NCBI GenBank assembly: GCA_913061095.1
Contig: CAJXVM010000016.1
Location: 1-64,000 of the forward strand
DNA from: an uncultured Ignavibacteria bacterium
GTDB taxonomy: Bacteria; Bacteroidota; Ignavibacteria; SZUA-365
DNA length: 64,000 nucleotides
Direction: 5' to 3'
A program made the position numbers and the translations under genes. Below, one piece after another: positions 2,324 through 57,411 of the stretch (positions within the stretch are counted from its first letter, which is position 1; every line of letters starts with the position of its first letter). The notes beneath the pieces were generated by a model. The model saw nothing but the letters and a program-made list of their open reading frames with translations. It had not been told where the DNA came from and searched no databases.

Positions 2324-3295
2324 ATGAACATCCTCGTAATCACTGAACAACGCGACGGCAAGGTCAAAAAAGCTTCGTACGAAGCCATCCGTGCAGCGAA
2401 AAATGTCGCCGGCGAGCTCAATGCTGATGTTACCGCCGTACTTTTCGGCGCTGATGAAGCTGCCGCGAAGGCCATGGGCGGCTACGGGGCCGCGAAGACG
2501 GTGCATGTCGCCGACGAGAAGCTGAATCTCTATTCCAACGGCGCGTATGTGAAGTCCGTCGTGCAGATCGCCGAGAAGGAGGGCGCGGATATCGTGATGC
2601 TGCCCGCCACGGCGCTCGGCAAGGATCTCGCACCGCGGCTGGCCGTGCGCATGGACGGCGCGCTGGCGCCCGACGTGACCGAGCTGTCGGTGGACGACGG
2701 CGATATCGTCGCCCTGCGTCCCGTGTACGCCGGCAAGGCGCTCATCAAGGTGAAAGTCACCAGCCTGAAGAAAGTGTTCTCCCTGCGTCCCAACGTGTTT
2801 TCCGCGGGCGAAGCCGACGGCGCGGAAGCGCAGGTCGAAGCGTTTTCGCCGCAGCTCGACGACGCCGATTTCGTGACGAAGTCAACCGGTACATCCATCG
2901 CCAGCGGCAAACTGGACGTGGCGGAAGCGACGGCCATCGTGTCCGGCGGACGCGGACTGCAGGCTCCCGAGAACTGGAATCTCATCGAGGATCTCGCTTC
3001 GGCGCTCGGCGCGGCCACCGGCGCATCCCGCGCGGTCGTCGACGCCGGCTGGCGTCCCCACGCCGAGCAGGTCGGACAGACGGGCAAGACCGTCTCCCCG
3101 AATCTCTACGTCGCCTGCGGCATCAGCGGCGCCATCCAGCATCTCGCCGGCATGTCGTCCAGCAAAGTCATCGTCGCCATCAACAAAGACAAAGACGCCC
3201 CCATCTTCCAGGTCGCCGATTACGGAATCGTGGGGGATGTGTTTGAGGTGGTCCCCGCGCTTACTGACGAGCTCAAAAGTTTTCTCGGAAATTAA
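2324..3295 (+). CDS. etfA: electron transfer flavoprotein subunit alpha
   Basis: EtfA, 323 aa, partner of the preceding EtfB. The N-terminal half has the alpha/beta fold ([20 protein letters not shown]). The C-terminal FAD domain is intact: SGGRGL at about 207-212, [18 protein letters not shown] at about 238-255 and [15 protein letters not shown] at about 263-277. It binds the redox FAD at the dimer interface. Its stop codon TAA touches the next repeat hairpin, which occupies the entire gap to the bifunctional nuclease gene. Base composition is GC-rich, as in etfB. Confidence 0.95.
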
Positions 3296-47249: not shown

Positions 47250-47345
47250 ACCTTGAAACACAGAGGACTCAGAGGACCCAGAGGCTTTATCGAAATGCGA
47301 ACTGAAAAAGCCTCTGTGTCCCCTGAGTTCTCTGTGTCTCAAGGT
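47250..47345. repeat. family-B empty hairpin (96 bp)
   Basis: Left arm 47250-47288 begins ACCTTGAAACACAGAGGACT. The reverse complement of the right arm (ending 47345) begins ACCTTGAGACACAGAGAACT. Both continue with CAGAGG/CAGGGG units to GGCTTT around a short loop. The outer ends equal those of the GxxExxY cassette at 52939-53497. It fills most of the gap before the six-hairpin gene. Confidence 0.87.
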
Positions 47346-50304: not shown

Positions 50305-51374
50305 TGCGAATACTGATCCACCTCGCCCATCCTGCGCATTATCATCTTTTCAAGCATGTCGTAAACAGACTGCGCGATGAGCACGAGGTACACATTTCCT
50401 ACAATGAAAAGGATGTGCTTGAAAAGCTCATTGATCCGGAGGAAGTCCCGGTATCGTGGCACCGTATTCGTACCGGAGGTGAAAGGAAAGGGAAGTGGGC
50501 CTTCCTCGGACAGTTTGTCCGCAAGGAGCTTGGTTTTTTTCGGCTCGCAAAGAGACTGCGTCCGGATATTCTCGTAGGTACACCAATTATTATTGCCCAT
50601 GCAGGCTGGCTGCTCGGAATTCCCTCAGTCATCGTCAATGAAGATGATTTCGATGTCATTTCCAGTTCGACGGCGATCGGCTATCCGTTCGCCTCGGTGA
50701 TCGTTGCGCCCAGGAGCTGTTCCCCCGGGAAATGGGGGCAAAAGACTGTTCATTATGACGGCTACCATGAACTGGCCTACCTCCGTTCGGACTATTTCAA
50801 GCCTGACCGCTCTGTTGTCGAAGACTATCTCGGATCTCCTGAACGGTATTTCCTGCTTCGTTTTTCCTCACTCTCAGCTCACCATGATATTGGGAAGTCC
50901 GGCATCAGCACCGAGCTCGCGTTGGACCTGGTTGCCATCCTTGAGAAGCATGGAAAGGTTTTCGTGAATTCGGAGAAGCAGCTTGATCCGGCGCTGGAAG
51001 CCTACAAGCTGCCGGTTCATCCCCGTGATATCCATCACGTACTCTATTTTGCGGATCTGTATGCCGGGGACAGCCAGACCATGGCGGCCGAGGCAGCCGT
51101 TCTCGGTACGCCGTCTGTTCGGTACAATGATTTTGTAGGGAAGCTCGGGTATCTTGCAGAACTAGAACATTCGTACCAGTTGACTGTCGGTATTTCCACT
51201 GGTGATACACAGAAGCTGCGGCAGACAGTTGAAACAATCGTGTCGGATATCAAAGAAAGACAGAACTGGCGCGATCGTGCGATGGAGATGCAGGCAGACA
51301 AGGATGATGTCACTGCGTGGCTGGCAGATTTCATCGTGACCTACGGCTCAAACCCGGTTGAAGCGAAGCCATGA
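50304..51374 (+). CDS. DUF354 family protein (GT-B-like)
   Basis: 356 aa. LIHLAHPAHYHLFKHVVNRL at the N terminus, DILVGTPIIIAHAGWLLGIPSVIVNEDD, FDVISSSTAIGYPFASVIVAP, and DLYAGDSQTMAAEAAVLGTPSVRYNDFVGKLGY near the C terminus are standard for DUF354, which resembles UDP-GlcNAc 2-epimerase and MurG-type folds. Probably a glycosyltransferase or epimerase for the repeat unit; no biochemical assignment. It starts on the last base of the preceding stop (TGATG) and overlaps the next start by 4 nt. Confidence 0.87.
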   Translation: MRILIHLAHPAHYHLFKHVVNRLRDEHEVHISYNEKDVLEKLIDPEEVPVSWHRIRTGGERKGKWAFLGQFVRKELGFFRLAKRLRPDILVGTPIIIAHAGWLLGIPSVIVNEDDFDVISSSTAIGYPFASVIVAPRSCSPGKWGQKTVHYDGYHELAYLRSDYFKPDRSVVEDYLGSPERYFLLRFSSLSAHHDIGKSGISTELALDLVAILEKHGKVFVNSEKQLDPALEAYKLPVHPRDIHHVLYFADLYAGDSQTMAAEAAVLGTPSVRYNDFVGKLGYLAELEHSYQLTVGISTGDTQKLRQTVETIVSDIKERQNWRDRAMEMQADKDDVTAWLADFIVTYGSNPVEAKP

Positions 51375-52888
51375 GCAGACTGCAGAAGTACCTGTTCTTT
51401 GTCGGCTTCGATGCGCTATTTATCGCAGCCGCGTTCTACCTGACCGCGCTCTTCCGCGGACACAACCTGGCAGAGTTCATCGTGGATTACCGCACGCCTA
51501 TCGCGGTGTTTTCAGCTGTCTGGCTGATCGGATCTCTCCTTGGCCGGAAATTCCAGCTCAAGCGCGAGATGAGCATGAACGAGGCCACGATAGCAGTGTT
51601 CCGCACGAATGTGATTCTGCTGCTCGTGGTCACGGCCATCATCCTTTACGGCGGCATCGATTATTCACGTGTCGTGCTCATCGGCGCCATGGTGTTCACG
51701 ACAGCATTTGAGCTGCTCGCGACCTATGTGTATACGCTTGATCGCGAACTGACTGCGGCGAGCCGGCTTCGCGACACCATGCGCGAAAAGCCACGCCTGG
51801 ATTTCGAGTCGGAAGTCGAGCGGTCGGTACAGGAGTGGCGGATCGATGAGGGGCTCCATGATTCCATCGTCGATGAGGCGGGTGAAGCGGCATTTTCATT
51901 CATTCGTCTTCACCTGGGTGACCATCCCGGCCAGACGCTCTTCATCTCCACGACCACGCGATTCAATATCCTCGCTCAACCGATTGATGTCTACCGGAAT
52001 ATCGTAAACCTGCATCGCATCAACGACATCCAGTACGTCAACAAGTTTTTCGAATCCGTCAACGAACGTCTGCCGGCTGGTGGAATTTTTATCAACTGTG
52101 TTGAGACACAGGAACAGCGCAAAAAACGGCTTCTCGGGAAATATCCGCCGGTATTCAATTACCTCTACTACCCCCTTGACTACGCCTTCAAGCGTGTGTT
52201 TCCCAAGCTGGCATTCACAAAAGGAATTTATTTTCTCCTGACAAGAGGAAACAACCGCGTCATGTCGCGTGCCGAGACCCTGGGTCGGCTCTATTCATGC
52301 GGATTCGAACTGCTCGGTGATACCGCTTCCAACGGACGCATGTACTTCGCCGCGCGGAAGATCAAGGAACCGGTTTTTGATAAGAGTCCGACATACGGTC
52401 CCCTCGTCAAACTCAACCGTATCGGCAAGGACGGTAAGCTCATCGGCGTCTACAAGATGCGCACCATGTATCCATTCGCCGAGTACCTCCAGGAGTACAT
52501 CCATCGGAATGAGGGACTCGACGAGGGGGGAAAGTTCAAGGACGATTTTCGCATCACCACCCTTGGCCGTTTCATGCGCAAGCTCTGGCTGGATGAATTC
52601 CCCATGTTCCTCAACGTCTTCAAAGGCGAGATGAAGATCGTTGGAGTTCGCCCCCTGAGCCCACACTATTATAGCCTGTACGATGAAGACCTGAAGCAGC
52701 GGCGCATCAAGTACCGTCCCGGGCTCGTACCCCCCTTCTACGCCGACATGCCCAAAACGCTGGAAGAGATCATGGACTCCGAGCGGCGGTATCTCGATGC
52801 CTACGAAAAAGCGCCCTGGCGCACGGATACCGTGTACCTGTGGAAGGCCATGGTGAACATATTCTTCCGCAATGCGCGCAGCGGGTAA
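51371..52888 (+). CDS. initiating sugar transferase (WcaJ/PF02397) with an embedded methyltransferase-like segment
   Basis: 505 aa. Four hydrophobic segments lie within residues 1-125. A central soluble region (about 165-325: ERLPAGGIFINCVETQEQRKKR, SRAETLGRLYSCGFELL, GRMYFAARK) resembles the C-terminal half of a SAM-methyltransferase fold. A bacterial sugar transferase domain follows (YGPLVKLNRIGKDGKLIGVYKMRTMYPFAEYLQ, DDFRITTLGRFMRKLWLDEFPMFLNVFKGEMKIVGVRPLSPHY, YRPGLVPPFYADMP). It should move a sugar-1-phosphate to undecaprenyl phosphate, the first step of unit assembly. The usual hydrophobic hairpin before the catalytic domain is replaced by the soluble segment. Confidence 0.88.
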   Translation: MSRLQKYLFFVGFDALFIAAAFYLTALFRGHNLAEFIVDYRTPIAVFSAVWLIGSLLGRKFQLKREMSMNEATIAVFRTNVILLLVVTAIILYGGIDYSRVVLIGAMVFTTAFELLATYVYTLDRELTAASRLRDTMREKPRLDFESEVERSVQEWRIDEGLHDSIVDEAGEAAFSFIRLHLGDHPGQTLFISTTTRFNILAQPIDVYRNIVNLHRINDIQYVNKFFESVNERLPAGGIFINCVETQEQRKKRLLGKYPPVFNYLYYPLDYAFKRVFPKLAFTKGIYFLLTRGNNRVMSRAETLGRLYSCGFELLGDTASNGRMYFAARKIKEPVFDKSPTYGPLVKLNRIGKDGKLIGVYKMRTMYPFAEYLQEYIHRNEGLDEGGKFKDDFRITTLGRFMRKLWLDEFPMFLNVFKGEMKIVGVRPLSPHYYSLYDEDLKQRRIKYRPGLVPPFYADMPKTLEEIMDSERRYLDAYEKAPWRTDTVYLWKAMVNIFFRNARSG

Positions 52889-52938
52889 TCACCTCAACCT
52901 TTGTGTCGTTTCCCTCAGAATCACATACGAGTGAATTT

Positions 52939-53497
52939 ACCCTTGAAACACAGAGGACACAGCGGACACAGAGGATTCAGTTAGTCCCAACGTCTTATGC
53001 GATTTATTCCGTCGGTCAGTCTGACGACATTGAAGTTGATCAACAGACCGAGGTTCAGCTTCAGTACCTTCAAGTAGGTGAGAATTTGGGATTTATGGAC
53101 AGGAAGGACGGTTTCGACAGCTTTCAGTTCGACGACGATCAGCTTGTCAACGAGCATGTCGAGTCTGAAGCCTGTGTTCACAAGAATCCCGTCATATTCA
53201 ACAGGAACTCGGAGTTGTCTTTCAACCGTATGTCCCATTTTGACGAGGTCGTGTGTAAGACAGGTCTCGTAAAGTGCCTCCAGCATTCCAGGACCAAACC
53301 GTCTGTGAACTCTGATTGCACACTCAATGATGTCAGATGTGATTCTGTTCTGAAGAGCAATTCCCTTCATCGTGTTCCCCCTATTTTGTGCACGTAACAG
53401 CAATCTCAACATAGCGCCAGCCAATGCTCCGATCCATACAAAAACGCTTCCCTAAAAAAATCCTCTGGGTTCTCTGGGTTCTCTGTGTTTCAGGGTT
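52939..53497. mobile_element. family-B cassette carrying a GxxExxY gene
   Basis: Inverted arms 52939-52978 and 53459-53497. From TGAAACACAGAG inward they match at 29 of 34 positions and both end GAGGATT. The outer ends (ACCCTTGAAACACAG and AACCCTGAAACACAG) equal those of the empty family-B hairpins at 47250-47345 and 55135-55226. The stop codon of the cargo gene (TTA on plus, 52981-52983) lies two bases inside the left arm. The right arm lies inside the 5' end of the Wzi-like gene. No target duplication was found. Confidence 0.78.
52981..53370 (-). CDS. GxxExxY protein (putative PD-(D/E)XK nuclease fold)
   Basis: 129 aa on the minus strand, against all neighbours. Start MKGIALQNRITSD chosen: AGGGGG lies 6 nt upstream, and the longer TTG-initiated form adds unconserved residues. 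Family hallmarks: IRVHRRFGPGMLEALYE with G28-x-x-E31-x-x-Y34, VPVEYDGILV, FRLDMLVDKLIVVELKAVE with Asp71, Glu81 and Lys83 in PD-(D/E)XK spacing, PVHKSQILTYLKVL and GLLINFNVVRL. This family is uncharacterised; a nuclease fold has been predicted. It is the only cargo of the repeat-flanked cassette 52939-53497. Confidence 0.93.
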   Translation of the reverse strand: MKGIALQNRITSDIIECAIRVHRRFGPGMLEALYETCLTHDLVKMGHTVERQLRVPVEYDGILVNTGFRLDMLVDKLIVVELKAVETVLPVHKSQILTYLKVLKLNLGLLINFNVVRLTDGINRIRRWD

Positions 53498-55115
53498 GAC
53501 CCACTCGTACGATACCGTGTACGCACAGGACGTACCGGAACATATTTCCTGGACGACTCTCTATGAGTTTCTCGACGAACTCGCTTCAGCGCAGGTAATC
53601 GATCTGAACACGAGCGTGAAACCCTACTCACGGAAGCTGATCATGCAGAAACTCCTGGAGGCACAGAGTGTGCAGGACAAGCTTTCGACGCGGATGCGAG
53701 GGGAGCTGAAGTTCTATCTTCGCCATTTCCAGTTGGAGCAGGGCACGAATGAGCGCCGGCCGGGCGATATCGATTTGCTCAGAGACCGCGACAGGGCTTC
53801 GGCTTCGTTTTATCCTACCGGGATATTCTACGCCGACTCACTATTCCGGCTGGGCGTGACTCCGGTTCTCGGCCTGCAGTATTTCTCGAATGAGAATGAG
53901 AGCTTCTACCACCGCTGGCACGGGATCAATGCGTTCGGCTATATCGGTGAGCACGTGGGAGTCTATGCCAGCCTCCGAGACAACCAGGAAAACGTGCAGA
54001 TCACGCGTCCTGAATACCTGAACCAGCGATTTGGTGCGCCCGCGAAGGGCGCTGTCGGAGGTGGTAAGGACTACAGTGAGACGCGCGGTGGTATCACTGT
54101 CGGCTGGGATTGGGGATCGGTCGGCATCATGAAAGATCACTTCCAGTGGGGCAGCGGGTACAACGGGACGAACATCTTTTCCGGTCGTTTCCCGTCGCCC
54201 GGACAGCTGAAACTGCATCTCGCACCCACAAACTGGTTTGAATTCAACTACGTGCATGCGTGGCTGGTGTCGGAAGTGCTCGACAGCACACGCTCGTACA
54301 ATACCAGTGATGGTGTATTCCGTGAAGTTTTCCACGACAAGTACCTCGCGGCGAATCTCTTCACGTTCAAACCGCTGCGGCAGCTGCATGTATCATTCGG
54401 TAACTCCATCGTGTATTCCGACATCGGCGTGCAGGCGGCCTATCTCGTGCCGTTCTTGTTTTACAAGTCCGTCGACCACACCCTGAATGCAGCCGGCAAC
54501 AAGACAGGTCAGAATGCTCAGATGTTCCTGGACATCAGTTCACGGAACATCCGGCACCTGCATCTTTTCACAACGATATTCTTCGACGAACTGAACACGC
54601 GCCGTTTCACCGAGGGGGACGACAACAACTTCTTCAGCATCAAAGCCGGCGCGCAGCTCAGCAACTGGCCACTGCGGAACGTGATCGTTCGCGGTGAATA
54701 CACTCGCACGAATCCCATGACGTACAAGCACAACCTCGAAACGACGACCTTTGAGACCAACAGCTTCGTGCTCGGGCATTATCTCCGTGATAACTCTGAC
54801 GAGATGTACGCGTCGGTCATCGTCAAGCCGTTTCGCGGGCTTCGGCTGCAGGCTGAATTCACGAACGCACGAAAGGGACCGGACGTCACTTACATCAGGG
54901 GGACGGATGCAATCAAGGTACCGTTCATGGAGGAAGTGCGCTTCGAGATGCAGAGCATTCGCTTCGAAGCGGGCTACGAAGTCACGCACAACGGACGCGT
55001 ATTCGCGGCCGTCAACCTCCGGGACGTCAGCGGTCCCGATGCCGCGGCGTACGTCCCGAATGTGTACCTTGGGAAAACGACCACTCTGAGTGGTGGTTTC
55101 CAGATCGGCTTTTAG
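53424..55115 (+). CDS. Wzi-like capsule assembly outer-membrane protein
   Basis: 563 aa. N-terminal signal-like sequence (KRFPKKILWVLWVLCVSGL), a helical segment (WTTLYEFLDELASAQVIDLNTSVKPYSRKLIMQKLLEA), then a beta-barrel with alternating strands ending in FQIGF, the aromatic terminus for BAM recognition. FQWGSGYNGTNIFSGRFPSPGQLKLHLAPTNWFEFNYVHAWLVSEV is typical of Wzi-like proteins, which hold polysaccharide at the cell surface. The hydrophobic core of the signal peptide is encoded by the right arm of the GxxExxY cassette. Whether 53424 is the native start or one acquired with the cassette is open. Confidence 0.82.
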   Translation: MLRSIQKRFPKKILWVLWVLCVSGLTHSYDTVYAQDVPEHISWTTLYEFLDELASAQVIDLNTSVKPYSRKLIMQKLLEAQSVQDKLSTRMRGELKFYLRHFQLEQGTNERRPGDIDLLRDRDRASASFYPTGIFYADSLFRLGVTPVLGLQYFSNENESFYHRWHGINAFGYIGEHVGVYASLRDNQENVQITRPEYLNQRFGAPAKGAVGGGKDYSETRGGITVGWDWGSVGIMKDHFQWGSGYNGTNIFSGRFPSPGQLKLHLAPTNWFEFNYVHAWLVSEVLDSTRSYNTSDGVFREVFHDKYLAANLFTFKPLRQLHVSFGNSIVYSDIGVQAAYLVPFLFYKSVDHTLNAAGNKTGQNAQMFLDISSRNIRHLHLFTTIFFDELNTRRFTEGDDNNFFSIKAGAQLSNWPLRNVIVRGEYTRTNPMTYKHNLETTTFETNSFVLGHYLRDNSDEMYASVIVKPFRGLRLQAEFTNARKGPDVTYIRGTDAIKVPFMEEVRFEMQSIRFEAGYEVTHNGRVFAAVNLRDVSGPDAAAYVPNVYLGKTTTLSGGFQIGF

Positions 55116-55134: not shown

Positions 55135-55226
55135 AACCCTTGAAACACAGAGAACCCAGAGAACACAGGGGCTTTTTTCAAGAAATGACTCCTCTGAGTC
55201 CCCAGTGTCCTCTGTGTTTCAATGGT
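55135..55226. repeat. family-B empty hairpin (92 bp)
   Basis: Left arm from 55135 (AACCCTTGAAACACAGAGAA, continuing CCCAGAG). The reverse complement of the right arm starts ACCATTGAAACACAGAGGAC, continuing ACTGGGG. The loop is about 10 nt around TTCAAGAAATGA. It lies between the Wzi-like gene and gmd, 47 bp before the gmd start. Confidence 0.87.
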
Positions 55227-56332: not shown

Positions 56333-56375
56333 AACCCCTCAGACACAGAGGACACAGGGAACACAGAGGTATTTC
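56333..56375. repeat. single family-B arm abutting fcl
   Basis: AACCCCTCAGACACAGAGGA, then CACAGGGAACACAGAGG, ends 7 bp before the fcl ATG. An in-frame ATG upstream (56323) would translate it as HRGHREHRG, a repeat-encoded peptide, so that extension is rejected as the start. Confidence 0.8.
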
Positions 56376-56376
56376 T

Positions 56377-57411
56377 ATGAAAAAATCTGACACGATTTAT
56401 ATAGCCGGTCACACCGGGATGGTTGGCTCTGCGATCTGGCGCCGGCTCGAATCCGAGGGATACAGCAATCTTATCGGCAGGCCGCTCGAAGAGCTGGATC
56501 TCACACGGCAGGCGGATGTCGAGCAGTTTTTCAAAAACGAGAAACCTGACTATGTCTTTCTCGCGGCTGCGCGCGTCGGGGGGATTCATGCGAACAACGT
56601 CTATCGCGGTGAGTTTATCTACCAGAATCTCGCGATTCAGAATAATGTCATCCACACCGCGCACGAGCATGGCGTGAAGAAGCTGCTGTTCCTCGGATCG
56701 TCGTGTATCTATCCGAAGCTCGCTCCGCAGCCGATGACGGAGGATGCACTGCTGACTGGTGAACTCGAGCCAACGAATGAGCCGTATGCGATCGCGAAGA
56801 TCGCGGGGATGAAGATGTGCGAGTCATACAAGCGTCAGTATGGCGATGATTTCATCTCCGCCATGCCGACGAACATGTATGGGAGAGGAGATAATTTCAA
56901 TCTGAAGAACAGTCATGTGCTTCCGGCACTGATCAGGAAGTTTCATCTGGCGAAGCTGATGAGGAATGGTGATCATGATGCTGTTCTGGAGGATCTGAGC
57001 AGGGATAATGCAACCACAGATTACACGGATTACACAGACGATCTTATCGAAGAGCTGGCCGAAAAAGGTGTTACGAAAGACTATGTGGAGATCTGGGGGA
57101 CGGGGTCGCCGAGGAGGGAGTTCCTGCATGTGGATGACTGTGCGGAGGCGCTGGTGTTCATGATGAAGAACTATGATGGCGAACAGCATTTGAATGTCGG
57201 TACCGGTGAGGATCTGACCATCAAGGAGCTGGCTGAGACGATCAAGGATATCGTCGGTTTCGATGGAGAGTTGCGATTCAATCCCGATTATCCGGATGGG
57301 ACGCCTCGAAAGTTGCTGGATGTATCGAAGATTAAGTCCCTTGGGTGGGAACCGGGGATTTCACTTGAACAGGGGATCCAGCGGACATATCATTGGTATC
57401 TATCACAATAA
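56377..57411 (+). CDS. fcl: GDP-L-fucose synthase
   Basis: 344 aa epimerase/reductase. [53 protein letters not shown] (catalytic Ser/Cys), [18 protein letters not shown] (Tyr-x-x-x-Lys), [27 protein letters not shown]. Converts GDP-4-keto-6-deoxymannose to GDP-L-fucose, the donor for the GT11 and NodZ-like transferases. Start at [12 protein letters not shown] loop near 212-221 ([12 protein letters not shown]) is encoded by a family-C repeat arm and lies where Fcl proteins vary in length. Confidence 0.93.
57013..57040. repeat. family-C arm inside fcl
   Basis: ACCACAGATTACACGGATTA followed by CACAGACG: 9-nt units CACAGATTA/CACGGATTA in frame, coding for TDYTDYTD. Same series as the arms at 4993, 58704 and 62004. 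Confidence 0.75.

Follow-up and report, generated by a model that had tools for sequence, protein, structure and literature searches.

The hydrophobic core (h-region) of the predicted signal peptide of a Wzi-like outer-membrane β-barrel protein is encoded by one arm of an inverted repeat that flanks the neighbouring, divergently oriented GxxExxY gene. The window, i.e. the whole stretch of 64,000 nucleotides that was analysed, corresponds to bases 1-64000 of contig C16 of a 4.61-Mb genome. Taken as a whole, the arrangement is probably best explained by an old insertion of a GxxExxY cassette, the right arm of which came to lie in frame and took over the h-region of the wzi-like gene.

A cassette arm within the wzi-like reading frame

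The wzi-like gene is located in a polysaccharide gene cluster, downstream of a sugar transferase gene (Table 1), which likewise precedes its orthologues in G009, G001, and L042. The AF2 model of its 563-aa product (pLDDT 84.6, pTM 0.84) is predicted to have a Wzi-type β-barrel fold. The top Foldseek match of this model, which bears out the label given to the protein in the sequence-only reading, was the Wzi structure 2ynk (E 1.6e-13; TM 0.70 by target), and the same structure was the sole PDB match in the family sequence-profile search (E 0.0033). PF14052 was matched by 16 of the 21 homologues at E<=0.1 (best 1.4e-14). The Pfam model search gave no match to PF14052 in the window's own protein, which is therefore named Wzi-like and not filed as a member of PF14052.

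Before the arm, the sole possible start of the ORF is ATG 53424; an in-frame stop lies four codons 5' of it, and there is no ATG, GTG, or TTG between that stop and ATG 53424. From this start, the protein begins MLRSIQKRFPKK-ILWVLWVLCVSGL-THSYDTVYA↓Q (the arrow marks the predicted junction), which can be divided into an n-region, MLRSIQKRFPKK (+5), a 13-residue h-region, ILWVLWVLCVSGL, and a c-region, THSYDTVYA↓Q. The charged n-region, the hydrophobic core, and the Gln-exposing junction agree with the pattern of Sec/SPI signal peptides. They also agree with the Q-rule of Bacteroidetes, by which Gln is exposed at the signal-peptidase junction (PMC5837995) and which A34↓Q35 fits. Cleavage at A34↓Q35 is thus predicted from the sequence, and the [AG]↓Q junction is aligned across the orthologues. 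The first helix of the AF2 model comprises residues 11-26 and is coded by the arm, without which the β-barrel would keep no hydrophobic N-terminus. The arm-coded stretch therefore probably works as a signal peptide.

The GxxExxY gene scored 136 bits against TIGR04256 (E 6.9e-40; curated cut-off 35) and also matched PF13366 (E 4.1e-39), so that its product belongs to the GxxExxY protein family. It is flanked by inverted periodic arms: positions 53452-53495 pair with 52941-52984 (44 nt, 80%, 467 nt apart), and in a gapped alignment of approximately 53452-53509 with 52926-52984, 46 of the 59 positions are identical. The alignment scored 31.0-31.5, whereas shuffled sequences reached at most 13-18 (13 in the comparison on which the cassette is defined, at a score of 31), and the RNA duplex predicted for the two arms has an energy of -65 kcal/mol (shuffled mean -24, minimum -43.5). 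The gene and its arms thus constitute a cassette. The start codon and the n-region of the wzi-like gene sit inside it, on the stretch leading from the GxxExxY start codon (53370) to the arm.

The right arm has a 9-nt period at 53463-53497 (TRF), which yields the series LWV-LWV-LCV at codons 14-22; in the frame matching that of the coding arm, the left arm reads N-stop-ILCVRCVLCVSR. These data agree with the sequence-only reading in that the signal-peptide core, ILWVLWVLCVSGL, lies within a repeat arm (codons 10-29), that a 9-nt period gives LWV-LWV-LCV, and that this arm is part of a GxxExxY cassette. The overlap between codons 13-25 and the arm also stands, but these codons occupy 53460-53498, one base away from the range of 53459-53497 given there.

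Table 1. Coordinates of the cassette, the wzi-like gene, and related features in the window.
Feature	Position	Strand	Basis
Gene-less palindrome, same ends as the cassette arms (CCTTGAAACACAGAG...CTCTGTGTCTCAAGG)	47251-47344	.	Sequence, pattern matches
Bacterial sugar transferase, upstream neighbour	51371-52888	+	PF02397, E 3e-24
Left non-coding arm	52926-52984 (core 52941-52984)	-	Inverted repeat with right arm
GxxExxY gene (PDDEXK_3 superfamily), 129 aa from ATG 53370	52981-53370	-	TIGR04256, PF13366
Cassette spacer between the divergent starts (GxxExxY 53370, Wzi-like 53424)	53371-53423	.	Spacer alignment
Wzi-like outer-membrane β-barrel protein, 563 aa	53424-55115	+	ORF, AF2, Foldseek, profile search
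Predicted signal peptide, codons 1-34, probable cleavage A34↓Q35	53424-53525	+	Aligned [AG]↓Q, Q-rule, AF2 helix
Right arm, in frame as codons 10-29	53452-53509 (core 53452-53495; weaker to about 53509)	+	Inverted repeat with left arm
Gene-less palindrome, same family, between the Wzi-like gene and gmd	55137-55225	.	Sequence
Solo arm copy between gmd and fcl	56336-56369	-	Sequence, TRF

Related repeats are concentrated in the window. A 16-nt repeat pattern (<=2 mismatches) has 11 matches in the 4.6-Mb genome, 10 of which are inside the window, and its reversed control has none; a degenerate arm pattern gave no match in the window's own genome. The two gene-less palindromes are each approximately 90 nt long and lie between genes of this polysaccharide cluster. 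The gap between the wzi-like gene and gmd contains a palindrome both in the window (55137-55225) and in G001 (L275 2162-2270), and the repeat sequences of the two are different, as if the slot had been kept while the sequence turned over. In addition, a 9-nt repeat of the CACAGATTA type is present in frame in the fcl-like gene (57013-57039), where it is read TTDYTDYTD; the fcl of G001 is without it at that loop.

Orthologues and the history of the locus

Among the roughly 48 Wzi-homologue loci fetched, a GxxExxY gene near the wzi homologue was found only in the window and in G009, which belongs to another genus of the same family and encodes a Wzi-like protein (75% identity) with the N-terminus MTINPTTTKILLALLALCGSILFSPTTRA↓Q. 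The gene order in G009 (L010 and L039, which are one contig) is sugar transferase, GxxExxY (divergent), and wzi-like, and the slot and orientation of the cassette are as in the window. The two G009 arms match each other at 39 of 43 positions. The right arm again forms the h-region, reading KILLALLALCG, which aligns without gaps to KILWVLWVLCV of the window, and the right-arm sequence itself differs between the two genomes.

Three orthologues were found free of the cassette. Their N-termini are MQKLHKILLIALLFLCAMSIQA↓Q in G001 (the window's genus; 75% identity; same operon), MINRTFLALLIVIFWSTSLSFG↓Q in L040 (42%), and MHKFILLITFLFLTSIGIA↓Q in L042 (46%; sugar transferase directly upstream). As each of these proteins has a signal peptide of the ordinary type with the same [AG]↓Q junction, the export signal is older than the cassette. 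In the comparison of cassette-free N-termini, none had the residues of the window protein beyond the generic K-I-L...L-C of G001. Of the two possibilities raised from the sequence alone, i.e. that the insertion had replaced or had created the export signal, the first is the better reading since the cassette-free h-regions differ, and the second is not supported since the orthologues (75, 46, and 42% identity) have signal peptides. Most likely, the arm replaced the h-region of an older signal. The search turned up no close relative in which the empty site is intact; the G001 operon comprises the sugar transferase, three other genes, wzi-like, the palindrome, gmd, and fcl, so that three genes separate the sugar transferase from wzi.

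It seems unlikely that the h-region is original to the gene, the cassette having been inserted just upstream at an arm-like signal peptide, or the left arm having been copied from it, so that the two converged. Such an origin would suit the pyrimidine-rich codons that signal peptides share with the arms, and it would suit KILLIALLFLC of the cassette-free G001, which is close to KILLALLALC of G009; given this K-I-L...L-C pattern, part of the N-terminal likeness may predate the arm or have arisen by convergence. However, both arms have the ends of the element and not those of a signal peptide: the two gene-less palindromes, which lie away from any signal peptide, share TTGAAACACAGAG termini with them. 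Moreover, such arms flank GxxExxY genes that have no adjoining signal peptide.

Under the preferred reading, in which the arm replaced an older h-region, a GxxExxY cassette whose inverted arms have a 9-nt period would have settled between the sugar-transferase and wzi-like genes, either in an ancestor of the window and G009 loci or in a locus that passed from one lineage to the other, and its right arm would have joined the reading frame of the wzi-like gene at the 5' end. From that point on, the cassette interior would have provided the start codon and n-region, the arm the h-region, and the original gene the signal-peptidase junction; the resulting Sec signal peptide would be of the ordinary type, with cleavage at A↓Q. 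The insertion may have been tolerated because, in the outward direction, nearly all arms are rich in pyrimidines and so give hydrophobic codons. The coding arm would have kept changing together with its non-coding partner, through gene conversion or the action of the element, while selection held it open and hydrophobic.

A single old insertion shared by the window and G009 is likeliest, because the cassette spacers of the two appear to be homologous: their alignment score of 21.5 exceeds those of all 200 shuffles (null maximum 18.0). The window spacer gave no significant alignment with any of the other five cassettes compared. The start codons of the two wzi-like genes do not align. Identity between the two loci is 75% for Wzi, 63% for the sugar transferase, and 53% for GxxExxY, and the low value for GxxExxY could also be explained by a second insertion or by replacement of the cassette. 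Two independent insertions, or the swapping of one cassette for another, at the same place in both genera would also account for the differing arm sequences and for the position of the window's GxxExxY protein, which branches outside that of G009 within the f1 clade. This history is nevertheless quite unlikely, as slot, orientation, and frame are the same, the h-region aligns without gaps, and the window spacer is homologous only to that of G009 among those compared. It is highly improbable that the fusion is an artefact, with the true start downstream (TTG 53496 or GTG codon 32) and the arm untranslated: ATG 53424 is not preceded by a clear Shine-Dalgarno sequence, but no downstream start, neither of these two included, would leave a hydrophobic segment on this outer-membrane barrel, the orthologues all begin with a signal peptide, and in both genera the coding arm is open in this frame, whereas the matching frame of the left arm is not.

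Arms of GxxExxY cassettes in other genomes

Arm identity is higher within a genome (46/59 in the window and 39/43 in G009) than between the two genomes (26/37 for U-U and 24/35 for D-D). These values, which come from short periodic sequences with few differences, suggest that the coding and non-coding arms are evolving in concert. A Leu of the G009 coding arm corresponds to Gln in the left arm, and Lys and Leu of the window's coding arm correspond to a stop and Arg in its left arm; these differences fit copying between the arms combined with selection on the coding arm. In the cassettes between hemE and hemN, compared in four genomes, a similar within-genome likeness of the arms was observed, though not in every pair. 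GxxExxY cassettes have apparently been kept at this position across species (L168, L178, L189, and L209), and the same applies to a position on the mutS side (L044, L060, L061, and L067). Such same-position cassettes would allow a proper test of concerted arm evolution, and if a coding arm and a non-coding one change together, the concerted evolution of a signal peptide becomes open to testing.

In total, 124 GxxExxY loci were sampled (100 from 294 genomes of the class and 24 from the family), of which 123 had a usable gene. At the threshold used, arms were present at 86 of these 123 genes, and 154 of the 172 arms of the 86 cassettes were purine-rich inward, i.e. toward the gene. The mean hydropathy was 0.7 for outward frames, -1.21 for inward frames, and -0.26 for the control, and a mean KD above 1.5 was reached by 22% of the outward frames, compared with 2.8% of the control stretches and 0.8% of the inward frames. 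A gene that starts inside a cassette therefore tends to gain an h-region-like stretch. Stops interrupt about half of the outward frames, so that an open hydrophobic fusion is not automatic. Because the arms are hydrophobic outward and hydrophilic inward, a simple rule can be suggested, by which neighbours starting inside a cassette gain h-region-like N-termini and those ending in it gain charged tails.

Arms overlap the C-terminal ends of neighbouring genes several times, e.g. the hemE tails in L178, L189, and L209. The signal peptide of a neighbour is clearly coded by an arm only in the window and G009 among the cassettes examined; most other overlaps of an ORF N-terminus with an arm were judged by eye to be spurious upstream extensions or antisense frames. 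At L201 (G459), at approximately 2869-3000 as oriented to the GxxExxY gene, an M1-peptidase-like protein (named by eye) encoded beside a GxxExxY cassette has the signal peptide MKAISLKLLWFCGFCVCNFLFNSNVKA↓Q, the DNA of which resembles the nearby arm and would be a second copy of the repeat. A scan of the 294 genomes for ATGA followed by two repeat units and Ala-Gln gave matches in 32 genomes, which are mostly ordinary intergenic arms, with a few reading as signal peptides. Among them, a prolyl-oligopeptidase-like protein of G500 (also named by eye) has the N-terminus MKRFLVFLVTFVVISLTAMA↓Q, a stretch much like the dispersed repeats of that genome, in which the repeat pattern has 18 matches against one for the control. 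G569 and G313 yielded weaker candidates than G500, and one in G060 was set aside as chance. The cases of L201, G500, G569, and G313 are regarded as leads from sequence likeness. That GxxExxY cassettes are portable donors of signal-peptide cores, repeatedly supplying h-regions, with copying between the arms rewriting these signals in a coordinated manner, is a rather doubtful generalization at present.

Relation to known systems

The gene in the window matches the TIGR04256 and PF13366 models of the GxxExxY family and has the inverted periodic arms of that family. REP sequences are dispersed by RAYT transposases, which are Y1 tyrosine transposases. The occurrence of gene-bearing cassettes alongside gene-less palindromes and solo arms resembles the REP/RAYT arrangement, but GxxExxY is PD-(D/E)XK-like and not a Y1 tyrosine transposase, and the cassette is only mobile-looking. 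In a literature search, GxxExxY was mentioned in only two papers, the titles of which are not relevant here, and no paper was found for PDDEXK_3.

Rickettsia palindromic elements (RPE) are inserted in frame in genes (reviewed in PMC2229807) and likewise show that repeat elements are tolerated in frame in conserved proteins. An RPE adds a tolerated segment, whereas the repeat in the window would take over a targeting signal, and the two are likened by layout and not by sequence. A closer precedent is the RU-2/YPAL repeat, which contributes to the signal peptide predicted for YPO1552 (Delihas 2007, PMC2759123, PMC2229807). Both are dispersed palindromic repeats that are fused in frame and supply some of the codons of a signal peptide; the repeat of the window is read in frame as codons 10-29 and is present elsewhere in the genome, which suggests a signal peptide of the same MITE-derived kind. 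In YPO1552, a 168-bp MITE begins a small putative exported protein, and there is no repeat-free comparison. In the window, by contrast, one arm of a gene-bearing cassette gives the h-region of a conserved β-barrel, repeat-free orthologues show the earlier signal, and the layout is found in two genera with differing arms. Repeat-derived signal peptides are thus already known; what is new here is the comparison of loci with and without the repeat, the setting within a cassette, and the fact that the two arms appear to change together. The locus thereby offers a comparative case in which a selfish or mobile-looking repeat appears to have taken over a targeting signal and the protein was not lost.
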